Shown in pieces: positions 23,737 to 33,869 of a stretch of DNA of 60,951 nucleotides (its first letter is position 1; every line of letters starts with the position of its first letter). The notes under the pieces are model-generated. The model saw only the letters and a program-made list of their open reading frames with translations, made no database searches and was not told where the DNA came from. A program made the position numbers and the translations under genes. This DNA comes from an uncultured Lachnospiraceae bacterium (GTDB taxonomy: Bacteria; Bacillota; Clostridia; Lachnospirales; Lachnospiraceae). The stretch is taken from contig ONEJ01000062.1 of the NCBI GenBank assembly GCA_900316805.1, positions 1 to 60,951 on the forward strand, given 5' to 3'.

Positions 23737-25710
23737 TTAATATGTCTCCATATAAAATTCATTATCACGCACGGTAACAATATAGATCGTCTCTCCATCC
23801 GCAGACGACTTTATCTCACACATTTCACGCTCCGTAGAGATCGTTCTGCGTTTCTCCCCCGTACTGATATCAATCACATACACGGTTGTCGGATCATCAC
23901 TGCAATAAACCGTGTTTTGATCCGCATGCAGCATATCTCCGACACCATCGCATATTGTCGTAAATTGATTCGTTTCGTAATCCACAGAGACAATTTCGCC
24001 CGTCATATGCTGAATCAACATCCGGTCGTCTAGTGCCTGCATGCGGGAAACGAGCGCATCATCAATGATTTTTTCCTCTTTATCGGCAATATCATAGCCT
24101 GCAAGTTTCTTCTCCTCATTGATATAATAAATCGTGCCGTTTCCGCACGACATCCGGGTAATTCCCAGATGGTCTGCAATCAGGCTCCTTCTTTTCGTAA
24201 GAAGATCAACCTCATAGATAGAGCCATCCGTCAATAAATAAAGCCTGTTCCCAATGGCAAAACACGAATAAACCGGCTCCTGTTTCGATGCATGATACGA
24301 TTGCAGCCGTCTCGCCTGCATATCTAAATAATCCGTCCCATCCAGAAGATAAGCGTGATGTTCATAAATCCGTTTTTGCTCCTGATTAGACAGATTGATT
24401 TCTATTATGTCGTAATCCCCGGATTCTTCCTCTCTTTGAACGAGATATGCACAATCGCCCCATACGCCGACAATTTCAAGATTCTCCTGTTCTTCATGCA
24501 AAAATGGATCGGTAATCAAATCTTTTGTACCTGAGGAATCTGTAATAGTCATATCATTTCCCGTTGCATCTATGATCCCGTATTCTGACCAGAATGCTTT
24601 TCCCCAGCCGTTGTCGTTGAAAAATGCTCCTGTTTCCTCCCTCTGCGAGCCACATCCCGCCAGCAGAAGCAGACTCAGAAGCAGAAATGGAACCGCCTTT
24701 TTTAGCCTGTACATTTTTTTCGCCAAAAACAAAACAATCAGACAGACCACTGTCGTCCCTATTAAAACTGCAACCAGCTTGTTCCATGAGTCAAACTCAT
24801 GCTTTCCGGTCTCGACATCATAAACGCCTGTCACATACCCCAGACGCCGGAGCAGGCTCACCGGCAGCGGCACGCAATATAATTTTTTCTCATCCAATAA
24901 AAACAGCGGGATAAAAACAATACTGCACACCATAAGAACGGTCGGAATGGTCTTTTTGAACAGCACCGAAAAAAGAAAAATCAGTGTTGTACAAAACACC
25001 GCGGCAACCACCCCCAGCATGATATAGAGTGCAAAAACTTCACCAATGCTTTTATTCCATGGACAATTGCTGAAAATATGAATGCTCTGAATGGGATAGG
25101 AAAATCCGGATAGGCCGAACCTCCATGCAGTAATCAGAACATTTTCGATATTAAACAGCAGACTGATCACAACAGCGGCGCACATTCCTGCCGCAACTTT
25201 TGCGATATACTGCAATCTGTGTCCCCCGGAAGTGACAAGATTGACCTCCAGCATGCCCATCTCATATTCATTGCAAAACACGGAAGTAACCTCCAGAAGA
25301 AGCATAAAAAACACAAAATAATTCACTTCCGTCCCCGCAAACAATTGAATCCACCCATTCTGATACATGTAATACCGATTGTCGGTGTCCTCCGATACAT
25401 ACTGCGCCTGAGATGCAATCATACTTGTCACATCCTGATCTTTCAATTCTGCGGACAGCCTTAACGTTTCCTTTGTATACTCTTCTTCCGTGATCGTCCC
25501 ATCTATATAATCCTGAACTGCTTTTGCCAATTCAGCATCCGCCTCTTCGATCTTCTCTTCCAAGGCCTTCACATACTGCCGTTTTTCAGAATTATCTTTC
25601 CCCTCCAGATTGCGGAGCATATCCATATACTGCTCCTTACACGCTTCGATATCCGTATTCACATAATACGCCGGTTCACTGCAAAAAGCATAGATGCCAT
25701 ACACGAGCAT
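23737..25710 (-). CDS. ABC-2-type permease fused to a lipoprotein-like propeller domain
   Basis: At least 657 residues in two parts. Residues 1-345 are an ABC-2-like permease: an N-terminal helix, a large external helical loop (about 12-120), then five or so transmembrane helices. Next comes a hydrophobic stretch ending LLLSLLLLAGC, which is a textbook lipobox, followed by about 300 residues of beta-propeller-like sequence (IYEVDLLTKR, VYVIDISTGEKR). So a lipoprotein signal sits inside a longer frame. The start is uncertain: the frame is open upstream to about 25790 and the first helix is clipped if ATG 25710 is used. GGGAGGG near 25786 is spaced for an ATT codon at 25776. Last gene of the ABC operon. 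Confidence 0.75.
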   Translation of the reverse strand: MLVYGIYAFCSEPAYYVNTDIEACKEQYMDMLRNLEGKDNSEKRQYVKALEEKIEEADAELAKAVQDYIDGTITEEEYTKETLRLSAELKDQDVTSMIASQAQYVSEDTDNRYYMYQNGWIQLFAGTEVNYFVFFMLLLEVTSVFCNEYEMGMLEVNLVTSGGHRLQYIAKVAAGMCAAVVISLLFNIENVLITAWRFGLSGFSYPIQSIHIFSNCPWNKSIGEVFALYIMLGVVAAVFCTTLIFLFSVLFKKTIPTVLMVCSIVFIPLFLLDEKKLYCVPLPVSLLRRLGYVTGVYDVETGKHEFDSWNKLVAVLIGTTVVCLIVLFLAKKMYRLKKAVPFLLLSLLLLAGCGSQREETGAFFNDNGWGKAFWSEYGIIDATGNDMTITDSSGTKDLITDPFLHEEQENLEIVGVWGDCAYLVQREEESGDYDIIEINLSNQEQKRIYEHHAYLLDGTDYLDMQARRLQSYHASKQEPVYSCFAIGNRLYLLTDGSIYEVDLLTKRRSLIADHLGITRMSCGNGTIYYINEEKKLAGYDIADKEEKIIDDALVSRMQALDDRMLIQHMTGEIVSVDYETNQFTTICDGVGDMLHADQNTVYCSDDPTTVYVIDISTGEKRRTISTEREMCEIKSSADGETIYIVTVRDNEFYMETY

Positions 25711-25789
25711 TGCAATCGCAAAAATCCCCAGAATATTTCCTTTTAAAAATATTTTTTTTAACTCTTGTGCAAAAATATGTATTCCCTCC

Positions 25790-26929
25790 CTAATCGACGT
25801 CAGGCGCCTTATAACAACCCAGGAAAAACAACAGGATAATCATAAAAATCACAACAACAATTACTTCCTGAAAATAATAAACCGGAAACCCTGCCACATT
25901 TACCACATCAAAGTCTTTGATAAGCTGTATAGGAGCAAACAGCCCAACCGGATTTAAAAAAAGTTTCTCATTGAGGCACAGCCATACAGAGCCTGCGAAG
26001 AGACCGATAACCGATACGATAGTCCATGAATTTTTCTTACTTTTTTTTGAGATAACAAATACCGTCAGCCCCCAGAAAAACGCTCCAATCATTCTCATCA
26101 GCATCTGGAAAAAAACGCACTCCAAAACCGTCATATTCACTGCAGTATCTGCGTAATCGGATATCGCATATAACGGCTGGTTCCATCCCTCCAATTGGAA
26201 GAAAAAAGAAAAAACGGCAAAATCAACGATTGCCACAAAAACGGTCACCATACATGCATAAATCCCGATCGCGAGCATTTTTGAAATCATACTCCTGCGC
26301 AACCCCATCGAACTCGTTTTTACCAGATATAACACTTTTCCCTTCCGGTCATAATACAAAATCCCGGAGGCTGCCGCAATGACGAGAAGAAAAATAAATA
26401 TCGTAGAGAAATCATACTCCAAGTATAACTGCATATGCTCCATATTATAAAATTGTTGTATTTTTCGATTGGAATAATCGCTTACGATTTTTTTGTTTTT
26501 CCGAATTTGAAATTTGCTGCTATTTTCGAGATTCTCTATATTCCCGCGCGCCGTAGTGACAACTCCGTCCATCCGTTCCGTATAATCATAAATATATTTA
26601 TACCTCTCATAATACGTTCCAAACTCGCTATAGTCTCCGTATATGTATCCGGTATAGGTGCCCTCCTGATTTCCACTTGTACTATAGTTCCCCGCACTCA
26701 CAATCTGTGTAAGTTCCTCATAGCGGCTGATCAAAAACTGCGCTTTTTCATTCGTCACGTTTCCCTTGATCTCTTCATAAATTTTCTCACCGCCGGGAGT
26801 CGGATTATTTAAACCGTTTTCAATTGCATAAATTTTATAGATATCTGCCATCATAAATAAAATGATAAGAAGCCATACAAACCGGTTGCATATCATTCTT
26901 TTTAATTCAAATCTAACTAAATGTGACAC
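25790..26929 (-). CDS. ABC-2-type transporter permease
   Basis: 379 residues from GTG 26929, which overlaps the ATPase stop by 13 bp. Layout: an N-terminal transmembrane helix (RFVWLLIILFMMADIYKIYA), a large external helical domain of about 130 residues, then five transmembrane helices. It has the same architecture as the following permease, so the two probably form a heterodimeric channel powered by the ATPase at 26917. Permeases with large external loops often move peptides or lipids, or confer resistance to them. The external domain has no recognised motif. Confidence 0.82.
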   Translation of the reverse strand: MSHLVRFELKRMICNRFVWLLIILFMMADIYKIYAIENGLNNPTPGGEKIYEEIKGNVTNEKAQFLISRYEELTQIVSAGNYSTSGNQEGTYTGYIYGDYSEFGTYYERYKYIYDYTERMDGVVTTARGNIENLENSSKFQIRKNKKIVSDYSNRKIQQFYNMEHMQLYLEYDFSTIFIFLLVIAAASGILYYDRKGKVLYLVKTSSMGLRRSMISKMLAIGIYACMVTVFVAIVDFAVFSFFFQLEGWNQPLYAISDYADTAVNMTVLECVFFQMLMRMIGAFFWGLTVFVISKKSKKNSWTIVSVIGLFAGSVWLCLNEKLFLNPVGLFAPIQLIKDFDVVNVAGFPVYYFQEVIVVVIFMIILLFFLGCYKAPDVD

Positions 26930-27663
26930 TCGTTTCCCCGCCTCGTATAATATAAAAAAACATCTTCCAGATCTGCACTGGTTTGCTCCAGGCTGTCGGC
27001 TGTCCGCTGCATAAGTTCTTTGGGATTTCCTTGAACGACAATTCCTCCGTCACTAAGAATCAGCACTTCTCCCGCAATCTTTTCCAAATCCTGAACAATG
27101 TGCGTGGACAAAAGCACAGTACAATTCTGACCAAGTTCCGAAATCAGATTGCGGAACCGGATTCTCTCATCCGGATCAAGTCCTGCTGTTGGTTCATCCA
27201 GAATAAGCAATTCCGGGTTATTTAAGAGTGCCTGTGCAATGCCCAGACGCTGCCTCATGCCGCCGGAAAAGGTTCTGATCTTATAATCGGCGTCATCCGT
27301 AAGATTCACTCGGTCCAATAAATTTTCAATCGTATGCTTATGCTCCGCTTTCGGCAATTCCTTCATGATGCACATGTAGTTTAAAAATTCTCTCGCCGTA
27401 AAATCCGGGTAATAAGAGGCATACTGCGGCATAAACCCTAACAGGCTGCGGTAATCACTCCGCTTGTCATAAATACTCACCCCGTCATACAGGATATCCC
27501 CCGAATCAGGCAGCAGGATTCCGGTTATAATATGCATCAGCGTTGTTTTCCCCGCTCCGTTAATCCCCAGTAATCCATATATCCCATCCGAAAGCTTCAT
27601 GGAAATATGATCCAACACATGTTTTGATCCATAAAATTTTGTAACTTCCCGAAGTTCCAACAT
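26917..27663 (-). CDS. ABC transporter ATP-binding protein
   Basis: 248 residues. Walker A is GINGAGKTTLMH (about 35-46), Q-loop in GFMPQYASYYPDFTA, signature FSGGMRQRLGIAQAL, Walker B LLILDEPTAGLDP and H-loop LLSTHIVQDLE. The C-terminal tail resembles bacitracin/lantibiotic-type (BcrA-like) transport ATPases. It is preceded at 2 bp by a lipoprotein gene and overlaps the permease gene, so it is one operon. It powers the two permeases. Confidence 0.92.
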   Translation of the reverse strand: MLELREVTKFYGSKHVLDHISMKLSDGIYGLLGINGAGKTTLMHIITGILLPDSGDILYDGVSIYDKRSDYRSLLGFMPQYASYYPDFTAREFLNYMCIMKELPKAEHKHTIENLLDRVNLTDDADYKIRTFSGGMRQRLGIAQALLNNPELLILDEPTAGLDPDERIRFRNLISELGQNCTVLLSTHIVQDLEKIAGEVLILSDGGIVVQGNPKELMQRTADSLEQTSADLEDVFLYYTRRGNECHI

Positions 27664-27665
27664 GC

Positions 27666-28667
27666 TTATTCCCTCACAAAATACGCCGAGCTTGTCTTAT
27701 CAATCAGCAGATTATCCCTGTATCCTGTTTCATCGATCGGACATAGGACAAAATACAGAGGACTATAATTTTGTATCTCTGAAAGCTCCTGAAATCCCAC
27801 AGTCACTTCCGCCATCCTCCCGCTCTCAACGACAACATCGCAGTACGCTTTACCGCCAAAAACGCTGACCGGGCAGTGATCCACCATGGCACAAATCCGG
27901 TACTTTTGATTCTCCCCTCCGTAGAGCTGAAGCGTCAGATCATCCGAGACATCTATTTTAGCATTTTCAACAATTGTACCGTTTTGCACATATTTCGTGA
28001 CGAGCTGTGTATCTAATTTATTTGTCGTTGTCCCATCACTGCTCTCTATAATGTACTGTTTTCGTACTTCATCCGGCAAATCGGTATATTGCACCTGATC
28101 GTCTGTGCAATCTGCATGATCTCGGGCTGCATACTTAATTTTCCATGGAAGGCAGGGAAGAATACTCTCATAATTTCCATACCCTGCATTTTCTTCCGTT
28201 ACACGATAGGAAGGACCATACATACTTGCAATGTACATTTCGTGCTCGTTTCCTGCTATGGCAAATTCCGGTTCCAACGTAAGCAGAACCGTTTTCTTTG
28301 TACTTTCCTCTAACTCAATCGGATGAATATACGCTTCTGCAGTATCTTCTTCCAGCCTGTATGGTTGTGCAATACCGTCAATAAAAACCATAAATCCTAT
28401 TTCGCAGGCTGCCTGCATATTATCAATCTCAATTTCTAATTCCAGCCCGTTCCCATCATAGGTAATTGTTCTTTTTTCCTTATCATAATTTGCAATTCCC
28501 CAGCTATAGGCTGCTTCAGTGGTTGCCTGATCAATCTGAGAAGAAAACGGGTTTTCCTCCCTGGCCGCACTTTCGCTGGTTATCATTTCTGCTTTGTCCG
28601 AAGCCGTACATCCTGTCATTGCAATACAACATGTCATCATTATTATAATTGCTATTTTCTTTTTCAT
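27666..28667 (-). CDS. Secreted lipoprotein, unknown function
   Basis: 333 residues. Signal peptide with lipobox IAMTGC (Cys about residue 20), then an acidic linker and a largely beta-structured domain of about 290 residues. No enzymatic motif recognised. It lies between another lipoprotein gene (13 bp) and the ABC ATPase gene (2 bp). The tight operon suggests it works with the transporter, for example as a binding or protection protein on the outer face of the membrane. Confidence 0.8.
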   Translation of the reverse strand: MKKKIAIIIMMTCCIAMTGCTASDKAEMITSESAAREENPFSSQIDQATTEAAYSWGIANYDKEKRTITYDGNGLELEIEIDNMQAACEIGFMVFIDGIAQPYRLEEDTAEAYIHPIELEESTKKTVLLTLEPEFAIAGNEHEMYIASMYGPSYRVTEENAGYGNYESILPCLPWKIKYAARDHADCTDDQVQYTDLPDEVRKQYIIESSDGTTTNKLDTQLVTKYVQNGTIVENAKIDVSDDLTLQLYGGENQKYRICAMVDHCPVSVFGGKAYCDVVVESGRMAEVTVGFQELSEIQNYSPLYFVLCPIDETGYRDNLLIDKTSSAYFVRE

Positions 28668-28680
28668 ATGTCACACCCGC

Positions 28681-29808
28681 CTAAAACGTTTCTGCTTCTA
28701 TTTCTGTTTCGCCATTATCATAATAAAATCCATACACCGTATGACTGTCTTCACAGATGATCATCTCATACAAAACATGGTCAAATACGATATCAGCAAC
28801 CGGTTCTTCTGTTGCCCGGTCATACAAACTGACCATATTTTCTTTTGCTCCGGTTTCCGGATCTGCATATGCTCCCAGATAATTCCCCTTATCGGAGATA
28901 AACAGACACTGGCTTTGCCATTTCTCATCAAATGTTATCGTCTCTTCTTTTCCATCCGTATACAGAACCGCAGCTGTTCCGCCCGCTTCCGTTCCATATT
29001 CCACAAATCCTTCATAGTAAAGACAGGCATTTTCAAACTCCTGATAAAAGGTAAGCCCGGTCGGATATATCCATGTTTCCAGACTCTCCCGGTCAAGCAC
29101 ACCGATGCAGATTTCCCCATCCTCCCCTGCTTCCGCCGATTCAAAATATGCTCCCGAAAGGAAAATACAGCTTCCATCCTCCGAAAGTTCCATACCATAA
29201 ACCTCATTAATCTGATTTCCCTTTTCCGGGCTCAAGATCTGCATCAGCAGTTCCTCATCCGAACCGTCATAATTCATTTCAACAATTTTCCCAAGCGTAT
29301 CGTCCATTTCCCCCGGCATGATCACAATTTTTTTTTTTCTGATCGGATCTATGATATATTGATACGAAAACCCATTTCCTGTTGCATATTCCGTCATATC
29401 AATCGTATCCGTAATTGCATATGTATCATCCACTACAAACACCTGATTGGACGATGTATAAAGCACCAGATTCTGATTATGCTTTCTGACCGTCATATTG
29501 CGGTCAAAAGATGCATCCGTTATTTTCGCCAGAACCTGATTCTCACTTGTATTGACAATTTCACAAAAAATATCGCGTTCCTGATTCTCTGTGATAAATG
29601 CAACAATGCCGCCGCCAAGTTCCGTGACGGAACATACATGTTGATCTCCAAGCGTTAAATCCTGTTTCTCATTAGAGATACTGTCTTCCTTTTCCGTATG
29701 TCGTACGGCCTCTGTATCAACTGATGCCCCTCCAGCAGAACCGAATGCACACCCGGAGCAAATCAGTATCAGTATCAATATGGCATCTGCCAAGATGTTT
29801 TTTTTCAT
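28681..29808 (-). CDS. Secreted lipoprotein with propeller-like repeats
   Basis: 375 residues. Signal peptide with lipobox ILICSGC (Cys about residue 20), then a beta-rich domain with repeated WD/YWTD-like strands (VFVVDDTYAITDTIDMTEYA, ICIGVLDRESLETWIYPTG). Overall character is close to the C-terminal domain of the permease fusion at 23737, suggesting related extracellular domains in one operon. It is preceded by an intercistronic hairpin (29838-29869). The role is probably extracellular binding or sensing; no ligand is inferred. Confidence 0.8.
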   Translation of the reverse strand: MKKNILADAILILILICSGCAFGSAGGASVDTEAVRHTEKEDSISNEKQDLTLGDQHVCSVTELGGGIVAFITENQERDIFCEIVNTSENQVLAKITDASFDRNMTVRKHNQNLVLYTSSNQVFVVDDTYAITDTIDMTEYATGNGFSYQYIIDPIRKKKIVIMPGEMDDTLGKIVEMNYDGSDEELLMQILSPEKGNQINEVYGMELSEDGSCIFLSGAYFESAEAGEDGEICIGVLDRESLETWIYPTGLTFYQEFENACLYYEGFVEYGTEAGGTAAVLYTDGKEETITFDEKWQSQCLFISDKGNYLGAYADPETGAKENMVSLYDRATEEPVADIVFDHVLYEMIICEDSHTVYGFYYDNGETEIEAETF

Positions 29809-29837
29809 AGTTCCTCCCGTTTACTGATTCGGAATGT

Positions 29838-29869
29838 GTATTCCCCCTGCTACACAGCAGGGGGAATAC
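29838..29869. promoter_or_regulatory. Perfect 14-bp intercistronic hairpin
   Basis: Arms GTATTCCCCCTGCT and AGCAGGGGGAATAC around an ACAC loop, between the secreted-protein gene and the first lipoprotein gene on the minus strand. No T-run follows, so it looks more like an mRNA stability or processing element, or an attenuator, than a full terminator. It would set different expression for the secreted product and the genes after it. Confidence 0.6.
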
Positions 29870-29877
29870 CAAAAACT

Positions 29878-30333
29878 CTAATATGTTACCTGAGTATAAA
29901 CAACATATGCATTTTCTGTAATGGCATCAGCCGCGCCATAAGCTGTGCATTTTGTACTTACAAATCCATCATAAGTATTGTTATTCAACTTATTTTTAAA
30001 ATGATGCATCTCATAATTCGCTGTAAGCGCACTACTTGCATTTGAAATCCATCCGGTAGTCTCGCCATCACCAATTACTTCTCCCGTAGTATAATAGCAA
30101 ACGGTCAAAGTCGCTCTGATCCGAGGTACTGCGCTCGTGGTTGTAGCCTGCGTGCAATATAATTTCTCCTGATATCCCATGCATCCATCGGTTTCGCCCC
30201 TGAGCGTTCCATACGTCGCATTTATGTATTTTGATCCCGAAACAGATGCTGCCTCTGCCTTTGAGTCCACACCCATAACGCTGACAAATACTATAAGTGC
30301 TGCTGTTAATAATCTTAAAAATCTTTTGCCCAT
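29878..30333 (-). CDS. Small secreted Cys-containing protein linked to agr genes
   Basis: 151 residues from ATG 30333, which has AAAGGAGG 8 nt upstream; a longer TTG frame to 30423 lacks a site. A Sec signal peptide (residues 1-29, ending SKAEAA) leads to a mature protein of about 120 residues. This is beta-rich, with Cys in GCMGYQEKLYC, LTVCYYT and STKCTAYG, so disulfides are possible. No family recognised with confidence; size and layout recall secreted bacteriocin-like proteins such as the lactococcin 972 group, but that is only a resemblance. It is encoded between agrB and the lipoprotein/ABC genes on one strand, so it may be the secreted product under quorum control. Confidence 0.72.
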   Translation of the reverse strand: MGKRFLRLLTAALIVFVSVMGVDSKAEAASVSGSKYINATYGTLRGETDGCMGYQEKLYCTQATTTSAVPRIRATLTVCYYTTGEVIGDGETTGWISNASSALTANYEMHHFKNKLNNNTYDGFVSTKCTAYGAADAITENAYVVYTQVTY

Positions 30334-30462
30334 TTTCTTTTCCTCCTTTGGATTGTGAAAATTTAATAATCTTAGCAAATCAATGACTGCCATCAATATA
30401 TCTTCCATCCAACTTTTTTTCAAGCATCTACGCGCGAAACAACCATTTTTACTACTGAGTGG

Positions 30463-31026
30463 TCATTTTTCTTTAAAGAATCTCGGAATACATGGGAGTT
30501 GGAGAAATGCCGCAAGAATAATTCCTATTGCAACGCTCGAAGCAATCTTCTCATATCCCAACCTCCAAATGATAAAATACACAGTTTCACATAGTAATGC
30601 GGTCATGATAGCAGCCATTTTATATCGTTTTTTCTCAATCTGATCAAGCGATCGATTCTTGGAATCAATCGGGCTCATAATGCACAGACTAAGAACAGCC
30701 AATACCGTTAAAACAAAAAGCCATACATTACATTGTATATATGGCTGAACAAGAAAGCAGAGGAGTAATAACCCCACCGACATGATAATACACAGCCAGC
30801 CATATGGAGCATGGTATCCTCCGCTATATCTGCGAATCAGGCATAACGGAATACTAAGTACAATGCCATATTGTACACGTCCAATTATTGCACCAATAGT
30901 CAATGACAGTATCATTGGTGCAACGGAATAGTAAAGGCTCTGAATGGCATACTCATATAATTCCTCCTCTTCTTCCTTTATGGCGTTCTGGCGAACCAGC
31001 CAGCGGGTTATCACTCTCACTATCAT
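30463..31026 (-). CDS. agrB: AgrB-family autoinducer-processing membrane peptidase
   Basis: 187 residues from ATG 31026, which has GGAG 9 nt upstream inside agrD. The longer frame to 31191 reads through agrD in another frame and is not real N-terminus. Several transmembrane helices surround the AgrB hallmark RRYSGGYHAPYGWLC. H72 and C79 are seven residues apart, as in the catalytic His/Cys pair of Staphylococcus aureus AgrB. AgrB cleaves the C-terminal tail of AgrD and helps form the cyclic peptide. Here it is two bases downstream of the agrD stop, so translation is coupled. Confidence 0.9.
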   Translation of the reverse strand: MIVRVITRWLVRQNAIKEEEEELYEYAIQSLYYSVAPMILSLTIGAIIGRVQYGIVLSIPLCLIRRYSGGYHAPYGWLCIIMSVGLLLLCFLVQPYIQCNVWLFVLTVLAVLSLCIMSPIDSKNRSLDQIEKKRYKMAAIMTALLCETVYFIIWRLGYEKIASSVAIGIILAAFLQLPCIPRFFKEK

Positions 31027-31028
31027 TT

Positions 31029-31175
31029 CTACTTTCTCCTGTACTGTGCTAATTGCTCCGGTACCTTCGGCTGATAAAACAAATGACTCGATGCTGAATT
31101 TGCATCTGCCTTTATCACTTGTTTCAATGCTCTGGCAGAAACCGAAGCGATAACGCTCCCTAATTTCTCCTTCAT
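31029..31175 (-). CDS. agrD: AgrD-like cyclic peptide autoinducer precursor with Ser in the ring position
   Basis: 48 codons, ATG 31175 to TAG 31029, with GGGAGG about 7 nt upstream. It is hidden inside, and out of frame with, the over-extended agrB frame. Layout follows AgrD: an amphipathic N-terminal helix (MKEKLGSVIASVSARALKQV), a core ANSASSHLFY, and the tail QPKVPEQL, which matches the conserved P-x-x-P-E-x-L recognition tail cut by AgrB. The ring Cys found in most AgrD is absent. Ser30 stands five residues before the tail (SHLFY), so a serine lactone like that of some staphylococci is predicted. Ring size and cleavage site are inferred. Confidence 0.85.
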   Translation of the reverse strand: MKEKLGSVIASVSARALKQVIKADANSASSHLFYQPKVPEQLAQYRRK

Positions 31176-31353
31176 TACTCTCACCTCCCAATCATGTTTA
31201 TTGCCATTGATTGCTATATCCTAATTTTACTAAAAATGAGATTATCTTTCGACAGCATATGCAAAAACGAACCGATTCATGCACAATTTGGTCTATTTAT
31301 ACAATGTTGACTTTAAAATATAAACTATTACAGAACAATTAATTTACAAAATA

Positions 31354-31381
31354 TAATATAGGGCAGAATTATTCTATATTA
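31354..31381. promoter_or_regulatory. Dyad in the agrD / XRE divergent region
   Basis: Perfect 8-bp arms TAATATAG and CTATATTA around 12 bp, 56 bp before the XRE start and about 180 bp before agrD. A candidate operator for the XRE protein or the LytTR regulator. The region 31176-31437 is otherwise AT-rich with no clear consensus promoter. Confidence 0.4.
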
Positions 31382-31437
31382 CATTCTTCTTGCATTATTC
31401 TTGATTTGGTAAGATACATATAAAGGAGGAGCATCCG

Positions 31438-31776
31438 ATGTTAGATTTTTCTTTGATGGGAAACCGAATTAAGCAACGCAGAAAAGAATTAAACATTACC
31501 CAGAATCAATTTGCAGAAACGCTTCAAATATCTAATAATCACCTTTCGACAATCGAAAACGGAAAAAGTCACGCGAGTATTGAACTATTCTGTCAGATTT
31601 GCGTTGAGTTGAATGTCACTCCTGATTATCTTTTGTCAGGACAGCTGCATCCCAATGATGTTCCACGTAATATTCAGGATATGCTTCGTTTATGCAATGA
31701 CGAAGACCTTGCATTTATCCAATATATGGTTGAATTTCTGATATCCCGGCATAACACCAATCCACATCAATCTTGA
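31438..31776 (+). CDS. XRE-family transcriptional regulator
   Basis: 112 residues, with AAAGGAGG before ATG 31438. An N-terminal Cro/C1 helix-turn-helix lies at about residues 7-65 (NQFAETLQISNNHLSTIENG), with a short helical C-terminal extension. It is the first gene of the plus-strand run with the LytTR response regulator (55 bp on) and the histidine kinase. It is divergent from agrDB, so it probably adds a repression layer to the signalling locus. Its target is inferred from position. Confidence 0.85.
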   Translation: MLDFSLMGNRIKQRRKELNITQNQFAETLQISNNHLSTIENGKSHASIELFCQICVELNVTPDYLLSGQLHPNDVPRNIQDMLRLCNDEDLAFIQYMVEFLISRHNTNPHQS

Positions 31777-31831
31777 ATTTCAATTTATCATCACATATAA
31801 TAAATGCAAATAATACACGAATGGAGAAACC

Positions 31832-32536
31832 ATGCGAATCCTTATATGTGATGATGATTCTCTCTTTTCAGCCCGGCTGAAACAGTCCATAACCGAATAT
31901 TTTCAAAAGCATAAACTTGCCTTGCCGGATATCTGCACTTATGACAATGGGGAAGCTGTACTCTCAGACTCCGGGGATAAGGATCTTGTATTTCTGGATG
32001 TGAAAATGCCAGGGCGAAGCGGAATCTACGTAGGCAACCGTCTGACAGAAAAGAATCCCGACACAATCATTTTCGTGGTCACCTCATTTGCAGAATATCT
32101 GGATGATGCGATGCGTTTCCATGTGTTCCGCTACCTGAACAAACCGCTGGACAAAACTCGCCTGTACCGTAATCTGGCAGACGCATTACATGAATATGCG
32201 TTTCGTACTTCCAAGCTCCTTGTCGAAACCAAAGAGGAAACCGTGACACTTTCAACAGCAGATATCATCAGTATCGAAACACAGAATCGCACTCTCACCG
32301 TTCATTCCACCAGAGGAGACTATATATCCGTTCACCCAATGCAGTACTGGCTGGACACCCTAACACAGCCATGCTTTTTTCAATGTCACCGCAGCTACAT
32401 CATTAATTTCATGCATGTACTGCAATTCAATAAGGATTACATACAGCTAACCGACAATCAACAGGCTTATTTGACAAGAAGAAAGTACACCGCTTTTAAA
32501 AAGGCTTATATGCTCTATCTGGAAAACACGAGGTAA
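31832..32536 (+). CDS. LytTR-family response regulator (AgrA-like)
   Basis: 234 residues. The receiver domain (1-120) has acidic residues CDDD (7-9) and phospho-acceptor D56 in LVFLDVKMPG. The LytTR DNA-binding domain (about 128-234) has ISIETQNRTLTVHS and FFQCHRSYIINFMHV. AgrA-type regulators bind direct repeats and switch on agr and target genes when phosphorylated by the AgrC-like kinase. The kinase gene starts 4 bp after the stop, so the two are co-translated. Confidence 0.92.
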   Translation: MRILICDDDSLFSARLKQSITEYFQKHKLALPDICTYDNGEAVLSDSGDKDLVFLDVKMPGRSGIYVGNRLTEKNPDTIIFVVTSFAEYLDDAMRFHVFRYLNKPLDKTRLYRNLADALHEYAFRTSKLLVETKEETVTLSTADIISIETQNRTLTVHSTRGDYISVHPMQYWLDTLTQPCFFQCHRSYIINFMHVLQFNKDYIQLTDNQQAYLTRRKYTAFKKAYMLYLENTR

Positions 32537-32540
32537 TACT

Positions 32541-33869
32541 ATGGATGCTATTATATATCTATTCACTTTTATTACGGAAGCATATATCTTTTATCTGTAT
32601 ACTTCCAAATTATTTATCATGAAACATTCCCGGACCAGCACAATCCTTTGCATTGCCCTCGGCTATCTTGTGATGTTTCTATTATCGTTTTTTCACAACC
32701 CTGATGTCAATATCACAATTTTTACTGTCATCGTATTTCTGCTAATTTTACGATTATTTTCTGCACGTATTTCTCAAGCCCTGTTTCATACTCTGATTCT
32801 GTCATCGACCATGTCGCTTAGTGAAGTTATTGTTACCGATTTCTTATTCAAATATATATCCACCATCTGGAATGAATGGGTAAACTGGAGCCAAACTTTC
32901 GTTTTGATTATTGGGGTATTTTTCAGCAAACTACTCTACCTTTTTATCACACAATTTTTGGCTGCGATACAGAAAAAAAACAAAAGTCAGCACACTTCTC
33001 TCAATCTGGGAACAGTTCTGCTCATTATAATCAGCATCTGCTCATTTGCTTCCATAAATATCTTATGTGAGTTAGTCTGGAATCTTCCATACTCCACCAC
33101 CTTGGAGCACACCATTGCAGTCGGCTCCACTCTCATGTTCATCATACTGATTCTCGTATACAGTCTGTATGGCTACAACCAGAAAAAAAGAGGCGAGTTT
33201 ACGGACTTACAGCTGCAGCTGCAAAAAGAAAAGGATGCGGGAAAATACTATCATATGCTGGCTGCGCAGGACGAACAGCAAAAAATCATGATTCATGACA
33301 TCAAAAATCATTTGCAGTCCCTTGCACAATTGAACCAGGACGGCAGGCAAAAAGAGGTCGAACAGTATCTGAATGAGCTCCTGCAATCCGATAGTCTGCG
33401 TCCATCTGTCCGGGTTTGCGACCACGAATTACTGAATGCCATTCTCTGTCGTTATCAGATACAATGTCAGGAAAAGAATATTGGCTTTCATACCGATATC
33501 CGCAGCGGTTGTGCAGACTTTTTGACTGATGAGGAAATCACTGCGCTATTCTGCAATCTGTTAGACAATGCCATAGAGGCCATCGGCGATACCGCAGACA
33601 GTTTTATCGAAGTCAGCATGGCAAAACGCCCAAATCCGCCCGTTACAACGCTTATAGTAAAAAACAGCTGCCCAAACGCTCCCAAATCGGGGAACGCCGG
33701 ACAACTTCTGACAAGCAAATCCAATCCGCAATACCACGGTTACGGACTACGCAGTGTAAAACGGATTGCCACCAAATATCACGGATATATGCAGGCATAC
33801 TACGATGAGATGGACGCCACCTTTCATGTAATTGTAAGTTTTGACACAAGGGAAATGTCCTATCCTTAA
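32541..33869 (+). CDS. AgrC-like sensor histidine kinase
   Basis: 442 residues. The N-terminal sensor has about six transmembrane helices (1-210), as in AgrC receptors. A coiled linker, the dimerisation helix with the phospho-accepting His in MIHDIKNHLQSL, and a GHKL ATPase domain follow: N-box FCNLLDNAIEAIG and G-box YHGYGLRSVKRI. It belongs to the HPK10 class that senses cyclic peptides outside the cell. Together with the LytTR regulator and the divergent agrDB it completes the quorum-sensing circuit. Its presumed ligand is the Ser-containing peptide. Confidence 0.92.
   Translation: MDAIIYLFTFITEAYIFYLYTSKLFIMKHSRTSTILCIALGYLVMFLLSFFHNPDVNITIFTVIVFLLILRLFSARISQALFHTLILSSTMSLSEVIVTDFLFKYISTIWNEWVNWSQTFVLIIGVFFSKLLYLFITQFLAAIQKKNKSQHTSLNLGTVLLIIISICSFASINILCELVWNLPYSTTLEHTIAVGSTLMFIILILVYSLYGYNQKKRGEFTDLQLQLQKEKDAGKYYHMLAAQDEQQKIMIHDIKNHLQSLAQLNQDGRQKEVEQYLNELLQSDSLRPSVRVCDHELLNAILCRYQIQCQEKNIGFHTDIRSGCADFLTDEEITALFCNLLDNAIEAIGDTADSFIEVSMAKRPNPPVTTLIVKNSCPNAPKSGNAGQLLTSKSNPQYHGYGLRSVKRIATKYHGYMQAYYDEMDATFHVIVSFDTREMSYP

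Follow-up and report, generated by a model that had tools for sequence, protein, structure and literature searches.

An agr-type quorum-sensing module adjoining a candidate effector and putative ABC/lipoprotein immunity cassette in an uncultured Lachnospiraceae bacterium

Introduction

Why should the genes of a peptide quorum-sensing system stand in one tightly packed series with a small secreted protein, lipoproteins and an ATP-binding cassette (ABC) transporter? The question is raised by positions 23737–33869 of a DNA stretch of 60,951 nucleotides from an uncultured Lachnospiraceae bacterium (assembly GCA_900316805.1, contig ONEJ01000062.1), the whole of which is called the window below. The source genome is a draft, 82% complete. 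The locus holds a full agr-type module, and directly behind its agrB gene lie the gene of a secreted protein, SEC, and five lipoprotein and transporter genes. Its gene content, order and families, its recurrence in relatives and the exchange of its secreted protein suggest an answer: the agr module is probably joined in cis to a density-gated, bacteriocin-like effector cassette, in which the ABC transporter and lipoproteins would provide self-immunity.

The agr module and the cassette

All the components expected of an agr system are present, with model scores above the cut-offs. On the minus strand, the precursor of the signal peptide, AgrD (48 aa, 31029–31175; TIGR04223, 32.3 bits, cut-off 19), adjoins the processing protease/exporter AgrB (187 aa, 30463–31026; PF04647, 120.9 bits, cut-off 23). 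H72 and C79 of AgrB, which we take to be its catalytic pair, are invariant in an alignment of 15 sequences. Diverging from agrD on the plus strand are an XRE-type helix-turn-helix (HTH) regulator (112 aa, 31438–31776; PF01381, 52.7 bits), an AgrA-like response regulator with a LytTR domain (234 aa, 31832–32536; PF00072, 54.5 bits, and PF04397, 59 bits, both above cut-off) and an AgrC-like sensor kinase with several transmembrane segments and a GHKL ATPase domain (442 aa, 32541–33869; PF14501, 70.7 bits, cut-off 22).

Behind agrB, the minus strand continues with SEC (151 aa, 29878–30333), the lipoproteins lip1 (375 aa, 28681–29808) and lip2 (333 aa, 27666–28667), an ABC ATPase (248 aa, 26917–27663; PF00005, 111 bits), the ABC-2-like permease perm1 (379 aa, GTG start, 25790–26929) and the ABC-2 permease perm2 (23737–25779, start approximate; PF12698, 20.8 bits, below the cut-off of 31.6). 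The spacing is 2 bp between agrD and agrB, 129 between agrB and SEC, 69 between SEC and lip1, 13 between lip1 and lip2 and 2 between lip2 and the ATPase gene; the ATPase and perm1 genes overlap by 13, and perm1 and perm2 are about 10 bp apart. An earlier note on this DNA, made from the sequence alone, had described just such a minus-strand series from agrD to the permeases, with short gaps or overlaps after the secreted-protein gene and with XRE, LytTR and AgrC-like genes diverging from it; coordinates and family matches bear this out.

SEC has an N-terminal signal peptide, recognized by eye and by script, and four Cys in its mature part; the lipoboxes of lip1 and lip2 were likewise read from the sequence. 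No homologue of SEC was found in 97 other genomes, and a pattern scan of genome contigs gave 14 stretches, none of them confirmed. Among 396 other genomes of the family, there was one truncated match (7.6e-7) and four weak ones (9e-4 to 4e-3). The only good match is a remnant, on a short contig (locus L193) without called agr genes.

The permeases show their own peculiarities. No match to perm1 was found in Pfam or NCBIfam, and its homologue is that of locus L071, described below. The natural N-terminus of perm2 lacks ATG, GTG or TTG, the reading frame being open from near 25779; a rare start codon, possibly ATT or ATA behind GGGAGGG, is probable. Perm2 ends in a lipoprotein-like fusion domain of 300 or so residues; the Cys of its internal lipobox, LLLLAGC, lies near 24643–24645. 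Such an in-frame fusion of an ABC permease and a lipoprotein through an internal lipobox was seen in two genomes, that of the window and that of L071 (L071:8114-9766).

Recurrence in related genomes

AgrB was used as the landmark for a comparison with related loci (L-numbers), in which gene calls, signal peptides and lipoboxes come from simple scripts. AgrB matched in 51 of 397 genomes of the family at 1e-10 and in 22 of 62 genomes of the genus at 1e-5, the source genome included in both cases. A scan of genome contigs with a 15-member AgrB alignment gave 101 confirmed relatives, of which 80 were kept; agrB was called in 79 of these, and 55 had at least 5 kb downstream. Many locus labels designate the same contigs (e.g. 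L108/L100, L109/L090); only loci of this alignment scan enter the co-occurrence count. A secreted protein was counted when 80–260 aa long and encoded within 900 bp by the first or second following gene on that strand, regulators being excluded (e.g. in L134 and L144), and an ABC ATPase when within 6.5 kb downstream of agrB. As a control, 306 non-agr genes from these loci were put through this test.

Behind the 55 agrB genes, a secreted protein was found in 24 cases, an ABC ATPase in 23 and both in 18. The corresponding figures for the 306 control genes are 14, 41 and 3, and one of these three control positives is a 50-aa open reading frame at the agrD position of L183. The Fisher p value for both together is about 1e-13, a guide only, since the species are related and thus not independent. 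One half of the refuting condition set in the earlier note was that agrDB would not be conserved together with the secreted protein and the ABC genes; on this half, the counts favour the view taken in the note. In plasmids and phages, AgrB has only distant matches (1 and 4 records at 1e-5), and no claim of a mobile element is therefore made. Near one of the agr loci, a secreted protein of 212 aa (L060:5172-5810) shows a weak likeness to the CHAT protease domain, with an E value of 0.001 and a score short of the cut-off.

Exchange of the secreted protein and pairing with permeases

The two closest relatives of the locus carry the same regulator set. Identities to the window in L108 and L109 are 80 and 81% for the XRE protein, 85 and 74% for the response regulator, 79 and 59% for AgrC, and 77 and 64% for AgrB. 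No match to SEC was found in either at E 1e-3. In both, SEC is replaced behind a conserved regulator set. The cassette of L109 is also a different one, its ATPase being 55% identical to that of the window and its perm2 27% identical over 92 aa. Throughout these 20-kb loci, flanks included, only the agr genes and the L109 cassette ATPase match the window at 1e-6, apart from low-identity matches to ABC ATPase and HTH genes.

Does the rest of the cassette follow the secreted protein or the agr genes? The pairing analysis covered 18 agr loci for which a permease was called; 12 of these fall in five SEC families of at least two members. The loci were drawn from 17 of the 18 with both SEC and ATPase (L179 was left out), plus L122, L165, L185, L076 and L077, L063 being unused; L165 and L183 then fell out because they have no called permease, and L076 and L077 because they have no AgrB to compare. 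Within SEC families (10 pairs), the best permease score has a median of 114.5 bits, versus 23.1 between families (143 pairs), a difference reached by none of 5000 label shuffles. For AgrB in the same pairs, the medians are 171.5 within and 126 between, and 712 of 5000 shuffles reached that difference. The permeases follow the SEC family; AgrB does not do so significantly. In the family formed by L109, L076 and L077, the same set of SEC, lipoprotein and permease stands next to agr genes in L109 and without called agr genes nearby in L076 and L077.

Other occupants of the slot and homologues of the cassette

At E 0.1, the 37 SEC-type proteins gave Pfam matches to DUF2712 in four cases and, weakly, to lactococcin 972 in two. 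With 28.4 and 30.3 bits, respectively, L101 and L105 have slot proteins that pass the DUF2712 cut-off of 22; SEC of the window does not belong to DUF2712 (PF10916), with no match at E 1. The fold of a DUF2712-like slot protein (L126) was also modelled from an alignment, with a predicted local distance difference test score (pLDDT) of 67 and a beta-rich structure. A Foldseek search of this model against the PDB gave no match at E 1e-3; PirA (3x0t; E 1.6e-3, template modelling score 0.45) came closest, and no fold is therefore claimed.

Locus L125 has the same set of XRE, response regulator, AgrC, AgrD and AgrB genes, followed by a trio resembling lactococcin 972 loci. Its secreted protein scores 26.2 bits against TIGR01653 (cut-off 32.1), its permease 166.6 bits against TIGR01654 (cut-off 189.35), and the top match of its ATPase is TIGR03608 (235.3 bits, cut-off 254.85). 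L106, with a more distant agrDB, gives 25.3 bits against TIGR01653 and 40.7 bits against TIGR01654. The SEC protein of L183 has a weak match (20.8 bits, cut-off 40) to the family of JUQZ-1, which is reported as a Brevibacillus laterosporus bacteriocin (PMC11747845). As such scores lie below the curated cut-offs, the proteins of L125, L106 and L183 are called “like” these families, not members of them.

Homologues of the window cassette occur in two other settings. In L071, from the same genus, the order is a SEC-type gene (SEC126), a lip2 homologue, a lipoprotein, the ATPase, perm1 and perm2 with its lipoprotein fusion, and the identities to the window are 22% for lip2 (2e-12), 47% for the ATPase and 26% over 399 aa for perm1 (9e-30). 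This cassette adjoins a different and distant set of AgrC, response regulator and AgrB (24–26%). In L193, from another genus, homologues of lip1 (23.6% over 263 aa, 2e-8), lip2 (26%, 4e-40) and the ATPase (51%) follow in the window order after the truncated SEC remnant, in which a stretch matches SEC residues 104–150 at 48% (E 7.6e-7) and has an open frame in no more than its last 42 codons. This is what retained, orphan immunity genes would look like. Elsewhere, a cassette lipoprotein (L137:9969-11138) matches DUF6034 at 44.7 bits (cut-off 27), which offers a possible way into the family of these lipoproteins.

Proposed mechanism and alternatives

We infer a sequence of events that covers transcription, density control, the role of the XRE protein, ring chemistry, bacterial target and immunity. 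AgrB would trim and cyclise AgrD to a five-residue ring peptide, probably a Ser lactone, which at high density would activate AgrC and lead to phosphorylation of the LytTR regulator. The XRE protein may set a threshold or off state at the promoter region shared by agrD and its own gene. Transcription would then run through agrDB into SEC and further into the lipoprotein and ABC genes, partly damped at a hairpin behind SEC. SEC would leave the cell by the Sec pathway and act on nearby susceptible bacteria, while lip1, lip2 and the lipoprotein domain of perm2, together with the ABC transporter, would protect the producer at the outer face of its cell membrane, either by capturing SEC or by shielding its target. 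Immunity is suggested here by the Sec-type signal of SEC, the SEC–permease pairing, the L193 arrangement and the analogy with lactococcin 972 loci.

Several observations weigh against such an effector and immunity cassette. SEC itself has no match at E 1 in Pfam or NCBIfam and matches no bacteriocin family, its profile shows no convincing similarity to the other SEC groups and single proteins, 15 in all, with which it was compared, and the structure prediction that the earlier note had suggested gave an unusable single-sequence model (pLDDT 41.5). All the lactococcin 972 and JUQZ-1 scores given above are below the curated cut-offs. The association is also incomplete: no secreted protein was called behind agrB in 31 of the 55 related loci, an ABC ATPase is missing in 6 loci that have a secreted protein, 5 loci have an ATPase and no secreted protein, and in L117, L119, L124, L127, L128 and L141 a non-secreted protein of 595–726 aa directly follows agrB. 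L108, the closest relative, has a SEC-type protein and no ABC cassette. The pairing is not strict either, with 11 of the 143 between-family permease pairs above 60 bits and one within-family pair at only 28 bits. No agr genes were called on the L193 contig, which is 4.5 kb long and leaves the wider context unseen. Finally, PMC11796350 describes the function of the transporter genes as unverified in any lactococcin 972 locus. The bacteriocin-like role put forward in the earlier note can be upheld in part. It is supported by two agr-linked loci (L125 and L106), in which lactococcin-972-like proteins come with a transporter of the corresponding type. SEC of the window is an orphan, and in most related loci no secreted protein was called behind agrB.

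Could SEC be instead a quorum-controlled factor for adhesion, matrix formation, nutrient capture or host interaction, with lipoprotein and ABC genes that handle its product or ligand? Most slot proteins indeed match no bacteriocin family, and other kinds of proteins lie near agr genes, such as repeats in L058 that by eye resemble peptidoglycan-binding ones and secreted proteins of 212 and 280 aa in L060. Yet the replacement of SEC between near relatives and its pairing with the permeases would fit a toxin and its immunity better, and we regard this explanation as unlikely. A function of the transporter and lipoproteins in the export, folding or release of SEC would agree with the tight gene packing and the paired families, as well as with the NCBI name of the lactococcin 972 ATPase model TIGR03608, “putative bacteriocin export ABC transporter”. 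It looks rather improbable, given that SEC brings a Sec-type signal peptide of its own and that L193 has kept lipoprotein and ATPase genes beside a mere SEC remnant, which an exporter would not need; exit by Sec is also what is assumed for lactococcin-972-like proteins (PMC11796350). The earlier note had left the choice between an export and an immunity transporter; of the two, immunity fits better because SEC already carries that signal peptide. The remaining alternative is a chance neighbourhood of two independent units, an agrBD operon that stops short of SEC and an ABC transporter of a generic envelope-stress kind. It can draw on the 129-bp gap between agrB and SEC, on the strong hairpin after SEC and on related ABC permeases that in other places adjoin two-component genes or, by eye, sigma-factor-like ones, with no SEC called, but the co-occurrence in 18 of 55 loci versus 3 of 306 controls makes it improbable.

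To a wider and more tentative idea we give somewhat less than an even chance. The agr subclade may be a general antagonism platform in the Lachnospiraceae, in which one quorum circuit serves a slot where unrelated small secreted toxins can replace one another, each of them paired with ABC and often lipoprotein genes for immunity. DUF2712 and several orphan families, including SEC of the window, would then be undescribed bacteriocins, and the ring residues of the signal would diversify between Cys, Ser and possibly Thr. If the density-gated effector and immunity cassette is what the locus encodes, the subclade would provide a sequence landmark for unannotated candidate bacteriocins in this family, including one in the cultured Roseburia inulinivorans DSM 16841 (L158), and function could be assigned from position where homology fails. 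It would also offer a testable case of quorum-gated antagonism, with effector and immunity exchanged as a unit, and of near relatives that differ by Cys or Ser at the ring position of the signal.

Comparison with known systems

One of the closest analogies is with the lactococcin 972 loci, such as the pneumococcal streptococcin B locus scbABC. They also combine a small Sec-secreted effector, predicted immunity/transporter genes behind it and peptide quorum control. According to PMC11796350, ScbBC occur without the bacteriocin gene in 157 of 571 pneumococcal genomes. In contrast to these loci, regulation in the window is of the agr and not of the competence type, and two lipoproteins and a permease–lipoprotein fusion are added. 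The window was rejected as a member of the family: SEC has no match to TIGR01653 or PF09683 and the permeases none to TIGR01654, all at E 1, and the best ATPase score over all NCBIfam (201.6 bits) is below the TIGR03608 cut-off of 254.85.

Immunity in lantibiotic systems is the role of the LanFEG and LanI genes. The window resembles them in having an ABC ATPase, two permeases and a lipoprotein; it differs in that SEC is a Sec-exported protein. Membership was rejected here too, the window ATPase scoring 178.4 bits against the lantibiotic-protection model TIGR03740 (cut-off 309.75), which is also the top match of the L158 ATPase (197.9 bits). Seven LanEG-sized permeases from relatives and perm1 of the window gave no NCBIfam match at the limits used, and no lantibiotic enzymes were found among the locus genes scanned.

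AgrB, AgrD, AgrC and a LytTR regulator are shared with staphylococcal agr and Enterococcus fsr, from which the divergent order with an XRE protein differs. The effector cassette lies directly behind agrB in the window, whereas S. aureus agr acts largely via RNAIII. The parts are of known kinds, both the agr system and the secreted bacteriocin-like protein with ABC genes. The slot architecture of the agr subclade is apparently undescribed: neither this arrangement nor the orphan protein families were found in the open literature, as covered by titles and beginnings of abstracts, with subscription papers mostly outside that coverage. An agr-like system in Roseburia inulinivorans is cited in PMC12405376.

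Signal peptide and intergenic features

The ring residue of AgrD in the window is Ser (codon 31086–31088), not Cys. The sequence ...ANSASSHLFY|QPKVPE... may be compared with ...ANSASCHLIY|QPKAPE... in L108, whose ring is C-H-L-I-Y, and the ring in the window is predicted to be S-H-L-F-Y; both the five-residue size and the cleavage site are deduced from the family pattern. A pattern search for AgrD listed 58 peptides, of which that of L149 was dropped as a false match, and 21 of 79 loci gave none. Of the 57 retained, 41 have Cys as their ring residue, 12 have Ser and 4 have Thr, and all four further AgrDs read by eye (L108, L155, L160 and L185) have Cys. Thr occupies this position in L148, L154, L157 and L163, the ring of L154 containing a Cys as well; we know of no characterised Thr-lactone agr peptide. 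According to PMC3673130, S. pseudintermedius has Ser-lactone signal peptides and E. faecalis a peptide with a larger lactone ring.

The palindrome AGAATAATTCT (31365–31375), about 60 bp upstream of the XRE gene, is a possible operator. Among 38 XRE–agrB spacers of other loci, there are 7 in which the longest palindrome has the core AGAATWATTCT. Between SEC and lip1, a perfect 14-bp stem-loop without a U tract (29838–29869, minus strand) belongs to an 81-nt fold of -32 kcal/mol (z -4.9), and a consensus scan listed no terminator there. This hairpin was rejected as a general feature, since stems of at least 10 bp were found in only 5 of 28 other loci besides the window.

The genome of the window contains two more agr-type fragments, both at contig ends. 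One is a second, weak agrB-like fragment (L195:5200-6701, G000:C47; 19.7 bits, below cut-off), behind which lie two secreted proteins of 171 and 224 aa, the former without similarity to SEC. The other is a third agr-type set (L194:4325-6621, G000:C103), with an AgrB fragment of 56.5 bits and pieces of a response regulator and a kinase.

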